DNA of 64,000 bases from contig JAFQZM010000037.1 in assembly GCA_017405875.1 (NCBI GenBank), forward strand, positions 1 through 64,000, read 5' to 3'. Source of the DNA: a bacterium (lineage in GTDB: Bacteria > UBP6 > UBA1177). The notes below the pieces were generated by a model, which saw only the letters and a list, made by a program, of their open reading frames with translations, was not told the origin of the DNA and did not search any database. Positions 44,358 through 53,256 of the stretch are shown here, piece by piece (positions within the stretch are counted from its first letter, which is position 1; each line of letters starts with the position of its first letter). The translations under genes and the position numbers were made by a program.

Positions 44358-46403
44358 ATGTCGGATTTTATTTTTGAAATCGGTTATGAAGAGTTTCCTG
44401 CAAGTTTTATTCTTCCTTTCGTTTCGCAGATCAAGGAAAAGATACTTTCTGACCTTGAAAAACAGAGGATAACCGTCGGAGAATGCAGAGAATTTTCGAC
44501 TTGTTCGAGAACCGCTCTCGTCTGCACGGGACTTCCTGAAAAACAGCCCGACATCCGCGAAAAAGTTACAGGCGCACCGAAAAAAGTCGCTCTGAACGCC
44601 GACGGAACACTTTCCAAAGCGGGCGAAGCGTTTCTTGCAAAGAACAAGATCACAGAATATTTCTTTGAAAACAGCGAAAAAGGTGAAGTTATCGCGGGAT
44701 ACGTCGAAGAAAAGGGAAAAGAGCTTGCCGAAGTTATCGCTCCCATCGTAAAAGCGGCTCTCCATGCTGCAAATTTCAAAAAAAGCATGCGCTGGGCGGA
44801 GAACACTTTCGCATTCGCAAGACCGATCAGATGGATAATGCTTTCTATCGACGGAAAACCGGTCGAAGACGATTTCGAAGGGATAAAATTCTCCTCTACT
44901 TCTTTCGGTCACCGCTTCCTTTCGAACGGCGCTTTGCAAGTAAATGCCCAGAATTACTGTGAAACTCTTGAAGCTCACTACATTTTTGCAGACAGGGCGA
45001 AAAGACGTGAATACATCAATTCGGAAGTCGCGAAAAAGGCGGCTGAGTTCGGACTCACGGCAAATATCGATGAAAATCTTCTCGATGAAGTCACCGACAT
45101 GGTCGAATATCCGCACGTAGTCATCGGCAACATTCCCGAAAAATACAAAAATCTGCCGGTCGAACTCGTCGTGAAAGTCCTCAAGAAGGATCAGAGATAC
45201 TTCACTCTCTGCGACAAAAACGGACAGGTCGTCAAATTCGCAAGCGTTCTCAACAACATTCCGCGTGACGATTCAGTCGTTGTCGAAGGAAACGAAAAAG
45301 TCGTTTCCGCCCGTCTTTCCGATGCGGCGTTCTACTTCAACGACGACCTTGCAAAAGATTTTGCAGCTCTTTCCGAAAGGCTCAAAGGTGTGCTTTTCCA
45401 GAAGGATCTCGGAACTTACAGCGACAAAGTCGAGCGTATCTGCAAGATCGCGAAATTCATTGCAGACAAATGCTTCTCGCTTGATACTGCTGCATGTGAC
45501 AGGCTGCTTACTGCCGGAAAAATGATCAAAAACGATCTCGTCACGGGCGTTGTTTTTGAATTTCCCGATCTTCAGGGGATCATGGGCAGATACTACGCAA
45601 GACACGCCGGTTTTGAAAGCGATGTCTGCGAAGCGATGTACGAGCATTATCTTCCGATAAACGCAGGTGACGAACTTCCGAAGACCGAGATCGGAACTAT
45701 TTTAAGCATGGCTGACAAAATAGACACGATCGTCGGCGGATTCATGGCCGGAATGAAGCCGAGCGGCTCCAAAGACAAATTCGCTATCCGCAGAAATGCG
45801 ATCGGATTCCTCACCGTTGCGCAGAATTACGGCCTCAACATCAAGGAAGTCGTCGATTTTGCCTGGGAACTCGTAAAACCGCGCATCAAAAACCTTAAAA
45901 GTGAGATGAAGCAGGAGATAATCGACTTTATCGTTGCGAGATACAGCGCAGTCCTCAGTTTCGATACTCCTGTCATCCAGGCTGCCGCAGCGCGTGACGC
46001 CGAACTTCCGAAAACAGTTGCAAAACGCGCCGAGACCATCGCAAAAGTTCTCAAAGAGAGCGACATTTCAGGTCTGGTACAACTTTACAAACGCGGCTGC
46101 AACATACTGAAAAAACAGGAAGTCGTGCCCGGTGAAGTCAACGAATCGCTTTTCGAACAGGATGAAGAGAAAAAACTTTTCGCCGAAGTCTGCAAAGTCG
46201 AAAACGAGATAAAGACCATGAACGACAACTTCGAGATCGCGATGAAGATTCTCTCGCTCAAACCCGCGCTCGACGCATTTTTCGATGCGGTCTTCGTAAT
46301 GCACGACGACATTAAGATCAGGGCGAACAGAATGAACCTCATCGGCAAAGTTACCGGTCTGGTTGCCGAAAATATCGGTGAAATAAGCTTTTTGAATATT
46401 TAA
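44358..46403 (+). CDS. glyS: Glycyl-tRNA synthetase beta subunit
   Basis: A 681-residue beta chain. FIFEIGYEEFPASFI at the N-terminus, MRWAENTFAFARPIRWIM, EVTDMVEYPHVVIG, LPVELVVKVLKKDQRYFTL and the HD-like segment MGRYYARHAGF are all typical. It binds tRNA and supports the alpha chain. The next gene lies in an AT-rich block that does not resemble this one in composition. Confidence 0.96.
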   Translation: MSDFIFEIGYEEFPASFILPFVSQIKEKILSDLEKQRITVGECREFSTCSRTALVCTGLPEKQPDIREKVTGAPKKVALNADGTLSKAGEAFLAKNKITEYFFENSEKGEVIAGYVEEKGKELAEVIAPIVKAALHAANFKKSMRWAENTFAFARPIRWIMLSIDGKPVEDDFEGIKFSSTSFGHRFLSNGALQVNAQNYCETLEAHYIFADRAKRREYINSEVAKKAAEFGLTANIDENLLDEVTDMVEYPHVVIGNIPEKYKNLPVELVVKVLKKDQRYFTLCDKNGQVVKFASVLNNIPRDDSVVVEGNEKVVSARLSDAAFYFNDDLAKDFAALSERLKGVLFQKDLGTYSDKVERICKIAKFIADKCFSLDTAACDRLLTAGKMIKNDLVTGVVFEFPDLQGIMGRYYARHAGFESDVCEAMYEHYLPINAGDELPKTEIGTILSMADKIDTIVGGFMAGMKPSGSKDKFAIRRNAIGFLTVAQNYGLNIKEVVDFAWELVKPRIKNLKSEMKQEIIDFIVARYSAVLSFDTPVIQAAAARDAELPKTVAKRAETIAKVLKESDISGLVQLYKRGCNILKKQEVVPGEVNESLFEQDEEKKLFAEVCKVENEIKTMNDNFEIAMKILSLKPALDAFFDAVFVMHDDIKIRANRMNLIGKVTGLVAENIGEISFLNI

Positions 46404-46419
46404 ATGCTGAAATAACCCC

Positions 46420-46447
46420 TTGTTTTTCGTCAGTTTTTCACTATAAT
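46420..46447 (+). promoter_or_regulatory. Promoter for the mscS-RyR-TIR block, copy of the lysS promoter
   Basis: TTGTTT (46420-46425), 16 bases, TATAAT (46442-46447). The stretch 46417-46465 aligns with 51595-51643 ahead of lysS, including 15 identical bases gtttttcactataat and a similar start region. It fits a duplication of the lysS promoter when the block was inserted. Confidence 0.6.
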
Positions 46448-46481
46448 TTGCAGGTGTGACTTTATTTGATGAATTTATGAT

Positions 46482-47528
46482 ATGTGTAAAATCATGAGTA
46501 ATCGATTAATGGCTTCTAAAAACATGTTTTGTCAGATTTTGGGAGCTCTGTTTAAACCATCGGCAATTTCCGTAATAGGCTGGTTTTTGTTGTTATGTCT
46601 AGGTGTTGTCGCTTGTTTTCAATTTGCTGGTCTTCAAATTTTCGGGAATTTGATAGAACTTCCTTGTAAATTGTATATCTTTGGTGGCGTAACTATCGCA
46701 GCTCTGCTTGCCATATCTGCATGTTCCACCCTGACAGATGTGTTCAGCCTTCTCAAAAAGGAGGTGGAACTTACTCGTTGTCAAATTGCAATTCTTGTTG
46801 TGATTGGACTTTGGATTATTAGCTTTTTGCTAATTTTCGATATACGGCAAGACACTACGTACTATCTGGCTTTGTTAGTTTTAGGATCGATGGTTGGATG
46901 GATATTTAAAGATATTCTTAGAGGAGTGACAGCGTTTGTACATCTTCGTATAAACCACCTCTTGAATATTGGAGATTGGGTTCAGGTGCCTAAATACAAT
47001 GTGGATGGCGAGGTTAGGCGAGTGACATTAACTACGGTGACTATTCTTAATTGGGACACCACGACATCTTCCTTGCCTATTGCAGCGCTGCATACGGAAC
47101 ATTTTGTGAATATGCAAAGGATGGCTGAAGGGAAAACATACGGACGTCAAATGGTTAAAACATTTTATATAAACAATAAATATATTCATTCGCTGTCTGC
47201 TCAAGAAGCTGATAGCTTAAGAAAGAAATTAATATTAAATGATGCTCCTCATTATTTGCAAGAGTGTGATATTCAAGAAGGAGCTCTCAACATTCGATTG
47301 TTTCGTCTATATATTTACCATTGGTTAATGAACCACCCAGATGTTTCTCAGAAGCCATGGGTTCTTGCTCGCTGGATGGATCCTGGCGAGCACGGTACTC
47401 CACTACAAATATACATTTACCTGACTAAATCTAATCTGTCCGCTTATGAGTGGTCTCAATCTCAAATTATAGAACATATAATTAGTTCATTAGATTTGTT
47501 CGGTTTGGAACTCTTTCAGAGTAGTTAA
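46482..47528 (+). CDS. MscS-family mechanosensitive channel (YbdG-like)
   Basis: A 348-residue channel. Three to four transmembrane helices at about 25-50, 62-80, 100-120 and 125-145 end in the pore helix, then the cytoplasmic beta domain: HLLNIGDWVQVPKYNVDGEVRRVTLTTVTILNWD, given here in parts as NIGDWVQVPKYNVDGEV and TTVTILNWDTTTSSLP. This matches the YbdG/MscM group. The gene is visibly AT-rich like its three downstream neighbours and faces the same way, 60 bases ahead of the next. In a defence setting such a pore could collapse the membrane, but a plain osmotic role cannot be excluded. Confidence 0.82.
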   Translation: MCKIMSNRLMASKNMFCQILGALFKPSAISVIGWFLLLCLGVVACFQFAGLQIFGNLIELPCKLYIFGGVTIAALLAISACSTLTDVFSLLKKEVELTRCQIAILVVIGLWIISFLLIFDIRQDTTYYLALLVLGSMVGWIFKDILRGVTAFVHLRINHLLNIGDWVQVPKYNVDGEVRRVTLTTVTILNWDTTTSSLPIAALHTEHFVNMQRMAEGKTYGRQMVKTFYINNKYIHSLSAQEADSLRKKLILNDAPHYLQECDIQEGALNIRLFRLYIYHWLMNHPDVSQKPWVLARWMDPGEHGTPLQIYIYLTKSNLSAYEWSQSQIIEHIISSLDLFGLELFQSS

Positions 47529-47588
47529 GATGTTAAGGAGAGCAATTCTCAGGAAACAAGCAATGAAAAATAAAAATAAGGAAAAAAT

Positions 47589-48707
47589 ATGAAAAAATAT
47601 TCAAAAAAACAATTGGAACAGCCTTTTGAGTATCTAAGGAGAAAAAAAGGAGAACTTTTCGAACCTGAAATTATAGCTAATTGGTATAAAGCTCGTGCAT
47701 TTGTGCTAAATGAGTTCCGTAACATAGCGTTTCTTCCCGACAACACAAACCATTTTCATCCAATTGTAATGGTAGATGACGATTGCGGGCTAATGCTGTC
47801 GGTTGCGCGAAAACTGGCTTTGTATGCACACTTCTTAAATTACAATGAAAACAGTCACGATATCAAAGGGCGTAATCGTACATGTATTACTTTAGTCACA
47901 AGCGATCCCAATATACTCGAGAAAATGCAGGAAGAGGAGTACCTTTGTAATCTGCCAAAGTATTGCTGCCTTTCTTTTTATGATGACAAACCGAAAAATA
48001 CTGACTCATATGTAGATATTGAGATAGAAATAGTTAAAGATTGTCCTGATCTAAGTGCTGATTATGAGTTTTTAATAACTGCTGATAAAGTAAGGGCGTT
48101 TTGTGACTCTAAGGATTCCGAAGATATTTATTTCATTGATACCCGACGGGCTGTATGGACAGAAAGAATTTATAATTTGGGAGCCGGGATAGACAATCTT
48201 CCGTATGAAGACATACATAATATCGAACGCTATGCGATGGCTTTGGATATATTCCAATTCAGAGAAATGAAAAAGAAGATGACAGCATTGATTCCTGAAA
48301 ATCTGAGTCAAAATAAGGTGAAAGAACATCTTTCGAGTTTGTTCTGCTCAGATTGTTTTGATTCGCGCTTTCAGGCTATAGAACAATTTTGCAGCAACAA
48401 ACAAGCTATGCAAATAGACAGATGGAAGCCTTTTCATGATGCTCTTTGTATGAGCGAACATGCTAGGTGGGTTACGGAAAAACTAATTATGGGTTATCGC
48501 CCGCTTAGTGAAGAAGAACGTCTATATGAAGAATGCCTTTTCGATAATGAAAAAATTCAATATCGAAAACAATTAAAGAACAATCCCGATGATTTGGTGC
48601 ATATTGACATTTGTTCACTTGCTGACTTATACCGTATTGATCCGGATAGCTTGAAATATGACAGTTTTCTTATGTTAAGTATTCCCACAATTATCAGGAA
48701 TGGGTAA
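47589..48707 (+). CDS. Rossmann-like protein with a C-terminal RyR-like domain
   Basis: A 372-residue protein of no firmly named family. The N-terminal half (HPIVMVDDDCGLMLSVARKL, ALYAHFLNY, TCITLVTSDPNIL) looks like a degenerate nucleotide-binding Rossmann unit, as in the TrkA-N part of some bacterial RyR proteins. The C-terminal hundred residues (FHDALCMSEHARWVTEKLIMGYRP, quoted here in part as SEHARWVTEKLIMGYRP, then DDLVHIDICSLADLY and LMLSIPTII) follow the EHxRW...GW...HPDLVPW pattern of RyR-like repeats. A true RyR-domain gene follows 5 bases later. AT-rich. Role as a nucleotide sensor is inferred. Confidence 0.55.
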   Translation: MKKYSKKQLEQPFEYLRRKKGELFEPEIIANWYKARAFVLNEFRNIAFLPDNTNHFHPIVMVDDDCGLMLSVARKLALYAHFLNYNENSHDIKGRNRTCITLVTSDPNILEKMQEEEYLCNLPKYCCLSFYDDKPKNTDSYVDIEIEIVKDCPDLSADYEFLITADKVRAFCDSKDSEDIYFIDTRRAVWTERIYNLGAGIDNLPYEDIHNIERYAMALDIFQFREMKKKMTALIPENLSQNKVKEHLSSLFCSDCFDSRFQAIEQFCSNKQAMQIDRWKPFHDALCMSEHARWVTEKLIMGYRPLSEEERLYEECLFDNEKIQYRKQLKNNPDDLVHIDICSLADLYRIDPDSLKYDSFLMLSIPTIIRNG

Positions 48708-48712
48708 TAATT

Positions 48713-49003
48713 ATGAAAATTAATAACTATAAACCTCAACCTATAGACGTATCAGGCATCGCTTTACCGACAGAGTTGGAACCATTAATTGAACAAATCG
48801 CGCAGAATGTGCATGAAGTTTGGGCAGAGACACGTATTCGGCAAGGTTGGATCTATGGGGTTGAGCGGAATGACATGCTTAAGACTCACCCATGCATTAT
48901 CCCATACGAGAAATTAAGCGAAAATGAAAAAGATTATGATCGCAATACTGCTATCAATACGCTTAAACTGATTGTTAAATTGGGTTTTAAAATAGTGAGG
49001 TAA
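48713..49003 (+). CDS. Stand-alone RyR-domain protein
   Basis: A 96-residue single RyR domain (the repeat named after ryanodine receptors). Matching features: YKPQPIDVSGIALPTELEPL, IEQIAQNVHEVWAETRIRQG, WIYGVERNDMLKTHPCIIPY, EKLSENEKDYDRNTAINTLK and a closing GFKI. The length is exactly one domain, with nothing attached. Prokaryotic RyR domains are rare and unstudied; in animal receptors this region has been linked to nucleotide binding. Five bases after the RyR-like gene and 95 before the TIR gene, so probably one operon. Confidence 0.85.
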   Translation: MKINNYKPQPIDVSGIALPTELEPLIEQIAQNVHEVWAETRIRQGWIYGVERNDMLKTHPCIIPYEKLSENEKDYDRNTAINTLKLIVKLGFKIVR

Positions 49004-49098
49004 TACCATGCAAACGAAAAATCATCCCCAAAAATATTTTGCATTTATTAAAAAGCGTTATTATATAGATTGATTTAGCATTTTAAGGAAATAATAAA

Positions 49099-51219
49099 AT
49101 GAAAAACACAGTATTTATATCGTATAAACATTCCATTGACGGAATGCCGACGGAAGATTCAAAGATGGCTAAAGAGTTATATGGAGAATTGGTTCGTAAC
49201 GGTATCAATACATTTTTTGCCGACAAAACTCTTTTGGAAGTTGGAGCGGATGGATATAAGGAACAAATTGATGCTGAGTTAGATGTTTGTCTGATTCTTG
49301 TCGTTGTTGGAACATCTGTTGATAATATGATGTCGGGCTGGGTTAAATATGAGTGGAACGGGTTCCAAACGGACATTTTAAATGGTTGTAAAAAAGGGAA
49401 GATCTTCACATATGTAGATAATATTAATCCGCATGATTTACCAAGGGCGTTGCGCGGGGTGCAATCTTTTGATAGGAAAAAAGATTCTTTGGGTAAAATT
49501 GTGGAATTTATAAAAAATGCGATTGTTAGTTTGGAAGCTGAAAATAATGATTCCGGTGAAATATATAATAAAATTGTTAATGATGAAAGAGAAAATCCAC
49601 CTGTTCTAGAAAATCCTTTCGCGGCAAGATTGCTAAAAAAATTTAAAACTATTAGCAATGTTTTTACTTTGTTAGATTTAGATTATTTACCTTCTAAATC
49701 ACCTGTTGATTCTTTTGATTTAAATGATTTGGTGCAAATATTTCAAGAAGAAAAAGAGGAAAAGTTTCTCTCCACAACATCTATTATTTACAAACAAGTA
49801 AGGTGTATTATATATGGTGAAGGTGGTTCTGGTAAAACGACATTCTTACAACACAAGGCTTTTGAGGTGTCCTCGGAATTAATAGATAACAATATTGTTT
49901 TTCCGCTTTATATTAGATTGGCTGAATGTGATGAGGATACATTTGCAAGTATTAATACTCTTTTGATCGCTTGTAACAAATCTATATATGAAATTTGTTT
50001 TGATGAAATATGTGATATATTTAAAAATAAAAAACTAATTCTGTTTCTCGATGGTCTTGATGAGTATTCTGTTGATAATAACATGAAGACTTCTCTTTTG
50101 TTTGAGAGCATTAATAAGTTTTCTTTGGAATATGATTGTTCTGTTATAATAACATGCAGAACTAAGTATTTGCCGGAAAATACATCTTATCAAAAATATA
50201 AAATATCACCGTTGTCTAACAACCTGATAAAAGAATTTATAAAAAGGTATTTTGACTTCTTTAATATTAACATGAATCCTGATAAATTTTTGTCATTGCT
50301 TCCTCGTGAAGTTTTGGCTTTAACCACATCACCACTTATTCTGTCAATGGTTGTTGCTCAATATTATATGACAAAATCAATCCCATCTAATAAAGATGAA
50401 TTGTATGAGAAAATTATGACACAACTGTTGAAGAAAAAACCAATTATTTCAGACGAATTACTTCAGGTAGGTGAAAAATTCTATCTACTTTGCTATTTGG
50501 CATTTTCAATCTTATTAAGCGGCAAATTATCTTTCAATTATTTTGATGCAATCAAAGTTGTTGATGAACGAAATTCATATAACTTGCCTTCAACAAAAAT
50601 TCTGGATGATTTTATTCATTCTGGTATATTGAGTAAAAATGATAATTTTGTTTCTTTTTTTCATTCAAGCGTCTTGGAATTTTTTTCTTCTCAGGAAATC
50701 AATAAAGAATATTCTTTTGTAGCAAAAGCATCCATGGATCAATATTTCTTAAGGAATGAGCAAAAAATTGACCGCATAATAAGATGTATCAGGCCCTCGG
50801 ATAATGATGAAATAATAGAAATCGGTGCTGGAATAGGCACAGTCAGTTTGCAGTTAAATAATTATAAAAAACTATATTTGGTTGATTTGGATGAAGGTCT
50901 TTGTAAAATACTAAATTATAATTTTAGACATAGAAAAAATTGTGAAATAATCCAAGATGACGCTATTAAAATGTTGCAAAATTTAAGATTTAATAAGGTC
51001 ATTAGCAATTTGCCATTTTTTCTAACTAAAGATGTTCTCAGGGCATTAGAAACAGTTGATTTTCAAATAGCTGTAATGTCAATTAAGGAGGATGATAATC
51101 TTTCGGAATTTAGTGATATTTTCAAAATTGAGGAGTTATGCGTACTTCTTGAAGATGATTTTTTCCCGCGTCAACCATTTAAATCGAGATTAATTAAAGC
51201 TACAAAAATATTAAAATAA
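49099..51219 (+). CDS. TIR-NACHT STAND protein with C-terminal KsgA/Dim1-like methyltransferase domain
   Basis: A 706-residue three-part protein. TIR domain at 1-145 (VFISYKHS, FADKTLLEVG, candidate NADase Glu85 in WVKYEW). NACHT ATPase at about 235-400: Walker A GEGGSGKTT (240-248), Walker B LILFLDGLDEYS (313-324), sensor ITCRTKYLP, winged helix to about 535. From about 545 a KsgA/Dim1-like SAM domain: SMDQYFLRNEQKIDRII, EIGAGIGTVS (574-583), NLPFFLT (637-643), and FFPRQPFKSRLIKA near the end. The usual QxExAxR region and C-terminal helical domain of KsgA are missing. TIR-NACHT architecture is that of anti-phage STAND sensors; a methyltransferase in place of the repeat sensor is unusual. Strongly AT-rich (17 G+C in 60 bases at 50641). 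Confidence 0.85.
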   Translation: MKNTVFISYKHSIDGMPTEDSKMAKELYGELVRNGINTFFADKTLLEVGADGYKEQIDAELDVCLILVVVGTSVDNMMSGWVKYEWNGFQTDILNGCKKGKIFTYVDNINPHDLPRALRGVQSFDRKKDSLGKIVEFIKNAIVSLEAENNDSGEIYNKIVNDERENPPVLENPFAARLLKKFKTISNVFTLLDLDYLPSKSPVDSFDLNDLVQIFQEEKEEKFLSTTSIIYKQVRCIIYGEGGSGKTTFLQHKAFEVSSELIDNNIVFPLYIRLAECDEDTFASINTLLIACNKSIYEICFDEICDIFKNKKLILFLDGLDEYSVDNNMKTSLLFESINKFSLEYDCSVIITCRTKYLPENTSYQKYKISPLSNNLIKEFIKRYFDFFNINMNPDKFLSLLPREVLALTTSPLILSMVVAQYYMTKSIPSNKDELYEKIMTQLLKKKPIISDELLQVGEKFYLLCYLAFSILLSGKLSFNYFDAIKVVDERNSYNLPSTKILDDFIHSGILSKNDNFVSFFHSSVLEFFSSQEINKEYSFVAKASMDQYFLRNEQKIDRIIRCIRPSDNDEIIEIGAGIGTVSLQLNNYKKLYLVDLDEGLCKILNYNFRHRKNCEIIQDDAIKMLQNLRFNKVISNLPFFLTKDVLRALETVDFQIAVMSIKEDDNLSEFSDIFKIEELCVLLEDDFFPRQPFKSRLIKATKILK

Positions 51220-51597
51220 TTGATTGTTCTATCTGGAGAAACTTCATTAGATGGTGTATAGTGGTAAACAAAAACTGGACAGAGGTTGAGTATAATAGCC
51301 AGCATTTCCAGCCAAAAAATCCCATATATCTTAAAAAAAATTATTGATTCTCTCATCTAAAAAGATATGGAAAAAATGTCGGTCTTTTGGGGGTGGGGTA
51401 TTTGGTGTTCCTGTTTTTTCGGAAAAATAAGAATATAAACACTGGAATTTACAAAATTTTTTTATGCCATCGAAAGAAAAAATGAATCAAATTTCTTGGC
51501 ACAAAAATCCTTGACAGCAAATTTTTATTTCGACGGTTCGACTAAGCTCACCGACCGAAACTTAACACCATTAGCCATGAAGTAATTCGTTTCGCCC
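51220..51597. other. AT-rich intergenic stretch after the TIR-NACHT gene
   Basis: About 380 bases with no supported gene. It is AT-rich up to about 51530, then holds a REP-like element and composition becomes like the host genome. This is the likely right junction of the inserted block. No tRNA, integrase or clear terminator was found. Confidence 0.5.
51531..51557. repeat. REP-like palindromic element
   Basis: cgacggttcgactaagctca followed by ccgaccg. CGGT and ACCG arms enclose tcgactaagctc. It resembles the widespread intergenic repeat type with the core TCGACTGAGCTCACC found in many bacterial genomes. Only one copy was seen in the window, so the call is by resemblance. Confidence 0.4.
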
Positions 51598-51625
51598 TTG
51601 TTTTCAAATCGTTTTTCACTATAAT
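51598..51625 (+). promoter_or_regulatory. lysS promoter
   Basis: TTGTTT (51598-51603), 16 bases, TATAAT (51620-51625). The transcript would start near 51632, just ahead of the leader-peptide ribosome site. See the matching copy at 46420. Confidence 0.6.
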
Positions 51626-51655
51626 CCTCCGCTGTAACTTTGATTGGAGGAGAGT

Positions 51656-51697
51656 ATGAGTTACAAAGCACTTTTAAAGTGTTTCAATAAAAAATAA
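51656..51697 (+). CDS. Lys-rich leader peptide upstream of lysS
   Basis: A 13-residue frame, MSYKALLKCFNKK, with four Lys, after a very strong ribosome site (GGAGGAGAG at 51646). The gap to lysS is 26 bases. TCCTCC at 51625-51630 is complementary to GGAGGA at 51646-51651 and could hide the site. There is no room for an attenuator hairpin between the peptide and lysS, so if it regulates, it would be through translation coupling. Could be chance. Confidence 0.4.
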   Translation: MSYKALLKCFNKK

Positions 51698-51723
51698 CTT
51701 GATGTTGCTTAATGGAGAAAAAA

Positions 51724-53256
51724 ATGGCTGAAAACAAAGCTCCGGAAACAAAAGTAGTTCCGCAGATGGATGAAAACGAGATCATAGCCCGCAAAAAAGA
51801 GAAAGTTAAAATGCTGCGCGAAGAGGGAATCCACCCTTACGCAAATAATTTTGCTCCCGATTCGACGGTAGAAAAGGTCGTTGAATACTGTAAGACCCAG
51901 ACGAAAGAAGAACTTGAGCAGACGGGAAAACCGCTTGAATTCGCAGTTGCAGGCAGGATCATGTTCCTTCGCATCATGGGAAAACTCGCGTTTGCAAATC
52001 TCAAGGACGAGACGGGCTCCATCCAGATCCTTTTCGCAAAAGACTTCCTCGGTGAAGATTTCGCGAAGTTCAAAAAGGCTTTCGATGTCGGTGATATAGT
52101 CTGGGTAAAAGGCGAAGTTTTCGTTACGAGAACGGGCGAATACTCGATCCTTGCTCACAAAACCGAGCTTCTCACGAAAAATATCCGTCCGCTTCCAGAA
52201 AAATTCCACGGACTTACCGATAAAGAGCTCCGCTACCGCCAGAGATACCTCGACCTCATCATGAACGATGATGTCAGAGCGACTTTCAAAAAGAGAGTGA
52301 AAATCATCAATTTCATCAGAAACTACATGAATAATGCCGGTTTCATGGAAGTCGAGACCCCGATGATGCACCCGCTCGTCAGCGGTGCCGCGGCGAAACC
52401 TTTCATCACGCACCACAACGCGCTCGACATTCCGCTTTACATGAGAATTGCGCCTGAGTGCTACCTCAAAAGACTTCTTGTCGGCGGACTCGGCAAAGTT
52501 TACGAGATCAACCGCAGCTTCAGAAACGAGGGAATGGACCTCAAACACAACCCGGAATTCACGATGATGGAGTTCTACTGGCCGTATGCGACCTACGAAG
52601 ACCAGATCCGCTTTACGCAGGAAATGATAAGCAAACTCTGCGTTGAGATAAACGGCTCGACCGAAGTTGAATACGACGGAATGAAAATCGATTTCAAAGC
52701 TCCGTGGAACAGAATGACGGTCGAAGAAAGCATCGTAAAATCGGGCGTTTGCACCGAAGAAGACCTCAAAGACAGAGAAAAACTCATTGAAATCGGTGTC
52801 AAAAACGGTCTCGACAAGGCAACGCTTGAAGGAATGTCACGCTACAAAATCATCATGGAATTCTTTGACAACTTTGTCGAAGAGCACCTGATCCAGCCGA
52901 CATTCATCACGAAATATCCGACCGAAGTGAGCCCGCTCGCCCGCAGAAATGACGTAGAGCCGGAATACACCGACAGATTCGAACTTTTCGTCGCAGGGCG
53001 TGAGCTTTCCAACGCATTCAGCGAACTCAACGACCCGAAACAGCAGTACGATTCGTTTGCGGCTCAGGTCGAAGCAAAGAAAGCGGGCGATGACGAAACC
53101 GTCGACATGGATAGCGACTACATCCGCGCTCTCGAATACGGAATGCCGCCGGCAGCAGGTCAGGGCATCGGTATCGACAGACTCGTCATGCTCATGACCA
53201 ATTCGCCGAGCATCCGTGATGTCATCCTCTTCCCCACAATGAAACCGGAAAAATAA
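51724..53256 (+). CDS. lysS: Lysyl-tRNA synthetase (class II)
   Basis: A 510-residue class II LysRS. Anticodon-binding OB fold at about 55-160 (VAGRIMFLRIMGKLAFANLKD). Class II motif 1 near FMEVETPMMHPLVSGAAAKP, motif 2 FRNEGMDLKHNPEFTMMEFY, motif 3 GQGIGIDRLVMLM. ATG 51724 is chosen because GGAG at 51714-51717 is its ribosome site; ATG 51712 lies before that. Codon use and G+C (about half in the line at 52501) are like the host, unlike the block upstream. Confidence 0.96.
   Translation: MAENKAPETKVVPQMDENEIIARKKEKVKMLREEGIHPYANNFAPDSTVEKVVEYCKTQTKEELEQTGKPLEFAVAGRIMFLRIMGKLAFANLKDETGSIQILFAKDFLGEDFAKFKKAFDVGDIVWVKGEVFVTRTGEYSILAHKTELLTKNIRPLPEKFHGLTDKELRYRQRYLDLIMNDDVRATFKKRVKIINFIRNYMNNAGFMEVETPMMHPLVSGAAAKPFITHHNALDIPLYMRIAPECYLKRLLVGGLGKVYEINRSFRNEGMDLKHNPEFTMMEFYWPYATYEDQIRFTQEMISKLCVEINGSTEVEYDGMKIDFKAPWNRMTVEESIVKSGVCTEEDLKDREKLIEIGVKNGLDKATLEGMSRYKIIMEFFDNFVEEHLIQPTFITKYPTEVSPLARRNDVEPEYTDRFELFVAGRELSNAFSELNDPKQQYDSFAAQVEAKKAGDDETVDMDSDYIRALEYGMPPAAGQGIGIDRLVMLMTNSPSIRDVILFPTMKPEK

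Follow-up and report, generated by a model that had tools for sequence, protein, structure and literature searches.

The 64,000-nucleotide stretch analysed here (contig JAFQZM010000037.1 of assembly GCA_017405875.1, from a bacterium of the UBP6 lineage; hereafter the window) carries a four-gene island that consists of an MscS-like channel gene, a gene at 47589 for a protein with a Rossmann-like half and a tail resembling the RyR (ryanodine receptor) domain, a gene at 48713 for a single RyR domain, and a gene for a TIR-NACHT-methyltransferase protein. We consider it somewhat probable that, taken as a whole, the island encodes a split nucleotide-gated channel module that is fed by the TIR protein and serves as an antiphage effector. 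The tail of the 47589 protein is homologous to RyR, four ligand residues are found in both RyR units, linkage to an MscS-like gene is constant, linkage to a RyR gene is frequent, and the island was acquired. The original prediction had proposed paired RyR-type domains in the two middle genes, and it overlooked the upstream MscS-like pore, the downstream TIR gene and a family of fused channel-like relatives.

The open reading frames 47589 and 48713 were found as predicted, on one strand and with 5 bp between them. The 48713 protein is a canonical single RyR domain, with a PF02026 match of 120.6 bits (cut-off 27.4) that spans model positions 1-90 of 91. Its pocket residues H34, W37, H59 and D76 are kept in 78, 78, 66 and 78, respectively, of 78 single-domain RyR proteins. 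No viral contig was matched in a search with the RyR alignment. RyR proteins 58-60% identical to that of the window are encoded on two faecal contigs (L122, MT837259, and L123, MT836850) that carry an unverified phage label.

The C-terminal tail of the 47589 protein had been read as RyR-like from the pattern EHxRW...GY...DDLV. The EHxRW...GY part is present, but the informative positions are not those of the DDLV run: conservation falls on H291, W294, H338, which closely follows DDLV, and D358. Pfam returned no family for the 47589 protein even at E 10, the tail is not filed as a PF02026 member, and a sequence search of the PDB gave no match at E 10. Relationship to RyR was evaluated by profile, profile-profile and fold comparisons. 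An iterated tail profile was grown in 1,501 predicted genes, with every protein detected by the RyR profile left out of the model; from the third search on, this profile gave 77 to 80 matches to single-domain RyR proteins (<150 aa) at E<1, the best E-value being 1e-8 in what is a small database with lenient E-values. Alignment of 91 tails with 78 single RyR domains by hhalign gave a probability of 96.9%; the E-value, 2e-10, refers to this single comparison.

The fold search with a model of the whole 47589 protein gave weak Rossmann matches only and no RyR row, and therefore the tail was predicted alone. The tail-only AlphaFold model, built from a 38-sequence alignment without canonical RyR, had a predicted local distance difference test score of 88 and a predicted template modelling score of 0.78; the structure alignments used part of the tails (A4, 32 rows; A5, 38 rows of 47 listed tails plus the window). 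It was found that 30 of the 35 PDB matches of this model were RyR domains, with E-values near 1, and that the top of the list held Bacteroides thetaiotaomicron and human RyR3 domains, the first four rows being B. thetaiotaomicron RyR. By VIA-align, the tail was superposed on 4n05_B with Z 6.1 and a root-mean-square deviation of 2.4 over 72 aligned residues; rows 1-15 were all RyR entries (Z 4.3-6.1), and the best non-RyR entry had Z 4.3. These results indicate that the tail is a diverged domain of the RyR superfamily, and the structural similarity to RyR on which the original prediction had staked its claim was found with the tail-only model.

The same four positions are known from RyDEP, for which a preprint describes a structure with 3' cyclic ADP-ribose (3'cADPR) in which H75, W78, H100 and D117 hold the ligand; the residues are reported there to be conserved in animal RyR and to bind adenine ligands in human RyR3 (PMC13232231). 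All four (H, W, H, D) are present in both units of the window, the tail and the separate RyR protein, and in the latter the pocket spacing of 3, 25 and 42 equals that given for RyDEP in the same text. Judged from these residues, both units look competent to bind an adenine or ADP-ribose ligand.

The Rossmann-like assignment of the N-terminal half of the 47589 protein, also part of the original prediction, was weak by fold (the best matches were NAD(P) Rossmann enzymes at Z 4.2) but strong by homology to fused channel-like proteins. This half gave no Pfam TrkA_N or RCK match, and its RCK kinship runs only through the fused family. A profile of the window, L057 and L094 proteins (A2) was aligned by hhalign with the fused proteins in their C-terminal half, at 99.4% and E 7e-22, over 308 columns and within fused columns 363-745. 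Among 86 distinct tail homologues (91 less 5 near-duplicates at 90% identity, the 91 having been assembled without the proteins detected by the RyR profile, of which 29 exceed 200 aa and some are transmembrane), 67 have at least two predicted transmembrane helices before the tail in one chain, as counted by a simple hydropathy scan. The other 19 comprise 7 with an MscS neighbour, 4 with a small multi-transmembrane neighbour, 4 cut by a contig end and 4 others; two further MscS-type loci came after this census and add to its 7. Two fused proteins (L051 and L096) pass the Slo-like_RCK model for the first cytosolic domain, and the fused family gave no PDB sequence match. The 47589 protein therefore appears, by homology, to be the detached cytosolic half of a transmembrane-Rossmann-Rossmann-RyR family.

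A D[PS]G motif occurs in 32 of 73 fused proteins, in many of them within a stretch W-S-V-Y-x-H-x-x-DPGN. The conserved form W-S-V-x-x-H-x-x-DPGN lies between the first transmembrane helices, for example in L076 (5861-7975, residues 72-111) and L078 (1963-4515, residues 141-180), and is, to our eye, reminiscent of CASTOR/POLLUX pores.

In L086 (4088-6709), beside a RyR gene, the tail domain is joined to a C-terminal Card1-like nuclease domain (7.7e-10), and in L106 (3823-6771), which a RyR gene adjoins, the nuclease match (1.2e-4) is below the Pfam cut-off. Card1-like nucleases are nucleotide-activated effectors. The tail is read as a sensor mainly because it is kept while the effector is exchanged.

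The neighbourhood of 47589-type genes was examined in loci fetched through the RyR gene (RyR-seeded; the best 80 of 201 loci, drawn from named genomes that are mostly Bacteroidales) and in stretches fetched through the tail (tail-seeded; 40 chosen from 59 match rows and 8 from 21 rows, the genome searches covering 399 Bacteroidaceae, 42 with a match, and 393 Bacteroidales, 20 with a match, under inferred family labels). Genes of less than 60 aa were ignored in neighbour counts. Relatives of the 47589 protein were reached only via the RyR partner: initial whole-protein tblastn searches of plasmids and phages and searches of viral contigs were empty, and searches of genome contigs with patterns from unconserved stretches of 47589 gave no relatives. 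Nine standalone 47589-type genes were obtained, the window included, and an MscS-like gene is directly upstream in all nine; the eight other loci are 29-68% identical to the window in the 47589-type protein and 33-69% in the MscS-like protein. In the window, the MscS assignment is supported by the channel's beta domain (PF00924, 35.7 bits; cut-off 20.2), and the 46482 protein is predicted to be the pore that conducts and gates.

The predicted pairing with RyR recurs in these loci, but members of the wider family can lack it. In six of the nine (window, L057, L094, L168, L225 and L226) the 47589-type gene is followed immediately by a RyR gene, and in eight a RyR gene lies within three genes, counting L165 and, as a fusion, L166; L167 has none. 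The two genes overlap by 4 bp in L057. This pairing fits a heteromeric sensor, as do the R12 unit of animal ryanodine receptors and the RyDEP homodimer (PMC13232231). In the RyR-seeded loci, 41 of 50 tails have a RyR gene no more than three genes away, a count biased by the fetch; a direct scan of the tail-seeded loci with duplicates kept found RyR within 3 kb in 14 of 39.

TIR genes are within five genes in four of the nine MscS-type loci (window, L057 on both sides, L094 and L226) and within 4 kb in five, the L166 TIR being at 3.8 kb. In the RyR-seeded loci, TIR was found 22 times per 298 kb within 3.5 kb, versus 3 times per 210 kb at 3.5-7 kb. A strict link between TIR and the 47589-type gene had been expected and was not found, the enrichment being confined to RyR-seeded loci; therefore, TIR goes with the RyR-containing form rather than with every tail protein. 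The TIR proteins near the module differ in their partner domains (TIR-NACHT-methyltransferase, TIR-Sel1, TIR-WD40 and SIR2-TIR), as expected of an exchangeable producer but also of chance turnover of neighbours.

Other arrangements of RyR genes were seen in these loci. A Priestia plasmid locus (L003, 1656-6282, NZ_CP128553) with similar gene lengths around RyR was considered as the same operon and rejected, three of its other proteins being non-homologous; it is of the Pycsar/TPR-S type instead. Its RyR gene, 53% identical to that of the window, shares an operon with genes for a Pycsar transmembrane effector and a cyclase/TPR-S protein, and a TIR gene adjoins. In a recurrent pair, a 184-208 aa protein that looks by eye like an RNA polymerase sigma factor is followed by a 312-386 aa protein ending in RyR; it occurs in L166 (8445-9927), where the second protein has a weak peptidase C39-like match (0.0029), and in L064, L069, L071, L085, L090, L110, L113, L175, L180 and L200. 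In L182 (5904-6974) and L072 (1308-2498), the RyR domain is at the C terminus of a multi-transmembrane protein, which by its motif resembles PrsW-type intramembrane proteases.

The four genes lie on the plus strand between two genes that we take, from their sequence, to be glyS and lysS (Table 1). In the closest relative, the glyS stop abuts lysS. Among 13 same-genus relatives in which glyS was located, the two genes abut directly in four (G007, G008, G009 and G016) and other DNA lies between them in six; three were not judged, the contig ending there or lysS lying outside the fetched stretch. Of the 28 genomes of the phylum searched, this one alone yielded the 47589 protein and the RyR family. 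Because of the empty site in relatives and the low GC content, 46404-51711 is read as an acquired island at an insertion hotspot with changing cargo (compare stretches L031-L037 of the relatives). Within 46404-46481, the first ~60 bases past glyS carry a promoter-like TTGTTT...TATAAT and recur after glyS in three relatives (L031, L035 and L039), in two of which they precede a gene for a protein recognized by eye as PIN-like; this stretch is perhaps an older insertion.

Table 1. Features of the glyS-lysS interval of the window.
Feature	Position	Strand	Evidence or remark
glyS (glycyl-tRNA synthetase beta)	44358..46403	+	left flank
Acquired island, 5,308 bp	46404..51711		GC 33.6% vs window 44.1%; empty site in relatives
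MscS-like channel, 348 aa, predicted pore	46482..47528	+	PF00924 E 9.5e-9; 9/9 loci
Rossmann/RyR-like protein, 372 aa, predicted subunit for gating and sensing	47589..48707	+	
Rossmann-like half, residues 50-185	47736..48143	+	fold (weak); homology to second Rossmann/RCK-like domain of fused proteins
RyR-like tail, residues 234-372	48288..48704	+	profile, profile-profile and fold searches
H291 (RyDEP H75 counterpart)	48459..48461	+	90/91 homologues; RyDEP numbering from PMC13232231
W294 (RyDEP W78 counterpart)	48468-48470	+	91/91 homologues
H338 (RyDEP H100 counterpart)	48600..48602	+	89/91 homologues; hhalign-aligned
D358 (RyDEP D117 counterpart)	48660..48662	+	87/91 homologues
Single RyR domain protein, 96 aa	48713..49003	+	PF02026 E 3.4e-35
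RyR pocket residues of the 48713 protein			H34, W37, H59, D76
TIR-NACHT-KsgA/Erm-like methyltransferase, 706 aa, predicted to sense infection and produce the signal	49099..51219	+	
lysS (lysyl-tRNA synthetase)	51712..53256	+	right flank

The TIR protein comprises a TIR domain (residues 1 to ~130), a NACHT domain (236-385) and a KsgA/Erm-like methyltransferase domain (542-646). Its TIR_2 match (1.1e-5, 26.3 bits) is just under the Pfam cut-off of 28, and the catalytic-type glutamate E85, conserved in 56 of 57 TIRs, is kept. The ksgA model match (3.4e-20) is below the cut-off of that model; an NLPF motif, which we take to be typical of the KsgA/Erm-like family, is present in the methyltransferase domain. 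A relative of this TIR protein beside other modules was sought and was not found, and PADLOC (models of 2023) gave no Thoeris match among the four proteins.

In the mechanism that we propose, the MscS-like protein would be the pore and the 47589 protein its gating subunit, a detached cytosolic gate. The RyR-like tail and the separate RyR protein would come together as a clamshell of two domains, resembling the paired repeats in animal ryanodine receptors, and bind an ADP-ribose-type nucleotide. The TIR domain would make this nucleotide from NAD+ once the NACHT or C-terminal part senses phage infection, and ligand binding would open the pore, leaving the cell depolarised or leaky and stopping the phage. 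The identity of the ligand, the heteromer, the gating, the role in defence and this TIR protein as the source of the signal are the parts of the mechanism that we infer.

Several results weigh against this interpretation. The tail's Foldseek E-values of ~1 are weak, and its Z of 6.1 is under the level that the tool calls safe. Of 36 tail-seeded homologues, 23 have no RyR within three genes (13 have one), tail-seeded loci show no TIR enrichment (7 TIR genes in 235 kb of near sequence and 7 in 160 kb of more distant sequence), and the MscS pair of L167 has neither RyR nor TIR nearby. At 1e-20, the 399 Bacteroidaceae genomes contain no match to the window's TIR protein, and its gene has 30.1% GC versus 36-38% for the other three island genes; because of these two results, the TIR gene may have been acquired separately. 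None of the channel, 47589 and RyR proteins is covered by a PADLOC model. Finally, RyDEP homologues with an intact pocket are for the most part binders that do not cleave (PMC13232231), and therefore the pocket residues cannot tell a sensor from a sponge.

The chief rival is that the tail alone senses the nucleotide and that the separate RyR protein is an off-switch, which would remove the nucleotide as a hydrolase or sponge of the RyDEP kind and so reset or restrain the channel, in the manner of the ring nucleases of type III CRISPR. It would account for the window's H34 and D76, which are the counterparts, at equal spacing, of the RyDEP catalytic dyad H75/D117 in the preprint text (PMC13232231), and for the frequent lack of a RyR neighbour among channel-like homologues, which is expected if gating needs no RyR. 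However, the other RyDEP homologues tested in that preprint are reported not to degrade signals though well conserved, and the tight coupling of the genes (the overlap in L057 and the short gap in the window), together with direct adjacency in six of nine loci, suggests a stoichiometric partner. We hold the off-switch to be unlikely.

A second alternative is a metabolic or osmotic channel, in which the module responds to adenine nucleotides or to products of NAD+ breakdown and tunes solute leak, and the TIRs are bystanders in variable islands. Such a role would suit L167, in which the MscS and 47589-type genes stand alone among housekeeping-looking genes, the lack of TIR enrichment in tail-seeded loci, and the adenine nucleotides co-crystallised with human RyR3 Repeat12 according to PDB entry titles. 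It is harder to reconcile with presence in one of 28 phylum genomes at a hotspot with changing cargo, with the strong clustering of TIR in RyR-seeded loci and with a Card1-like nuclease as the alternative effector, and it too appears improbable. A third alternative, in which the tail resembles RyR only through a chance arrangement of helices and the two genes have no relationship, could draw on the absence of Pfam and PDB sequence hits at E 10 and on the modest fold scores. It is largely refuted, and very improbable, given that independent profile, profile-profile and fold searches agree and that each of the four pocket residues is present in 87-91 of the 91 homologues.

More broadly, we suggest, tentatively and with some doubt, that bacterial RyR-like domains form a signalling chain in which a TIR-made cADPR isomer acts on a RyR heterodimer and thereby opens a separate MscS-type pore for antiphage defence. 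The ligand pocket would be that of animal RyR, and the effector could be exchanged among a fused channel, an MscS protein and a nuclease. Animal physiologists have long asked if, and at which site, cyclic ADP-ribose acts on ryanodine receptors. If the split-channel reading is true, this could be tested with purified components of a small bacterial channel that has two RyR pockets as its only evident sensors and is encoded beside a TIR enzyme. Such a channel would also suggest what bacterial RyR proteins do, of which the 3nrt structure is labelled just 'putative ryanodine receptor', and would help to explain RyR-domain decoys in phages. Burroughs and colleagues (2015) reportedly placed prokaryotic RyR among nucleotide-centred conflict systems. 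No published MscS-RyR-TIR module was found in a literature search that did not extend to the Yirmiya 2025 TIR systems.

Among known systems, animal ryanodine receptors resemble the proposed module in that two RyR repeats (R12 or R34) form one unit within an ion channel; they differ in being one giant chain with a different pore that serves calcium release, whereas here the pore is MscS-like and the genes are separate. The sensor of bCNG channels is a fused cyclic-nucleotide-binding domain, unlike the separate RyR subunits of the window. The likeness to bCNG channels is a nucleotide-gated pore of the MscS superfamily (Caldwell 2010 and Malcolm 2012, by their titles as cited in PMC4560390). Cam1 of type III CRISPR likewise depolarises the cell through a membrane pore coupled to a nucleotide sensor, but it has a CARF sensor for cA4, a single fused chain and a predicted tetrameric pore (PMC10808066). 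Thoeris is similar in placing a TIR with the conserved glutamate beside a putative effector responding to an ADP-ribose nucleotide; its known effectors use SIR2-SLOG or other sensors (PMC11204291), whereas RyR and MscS are found here. Phage RyR-domain proteins are reported to act on Thoeris signals, and RyDEP shares the H/W/H/D pocket and acts on TIR-made 2'cADPR and 3'cADPR; in contrast to the module proposed here, RyDEP is a phage counter-defence enzyme or sponge, a homodimer with no tie to a channel (PMC13232231).
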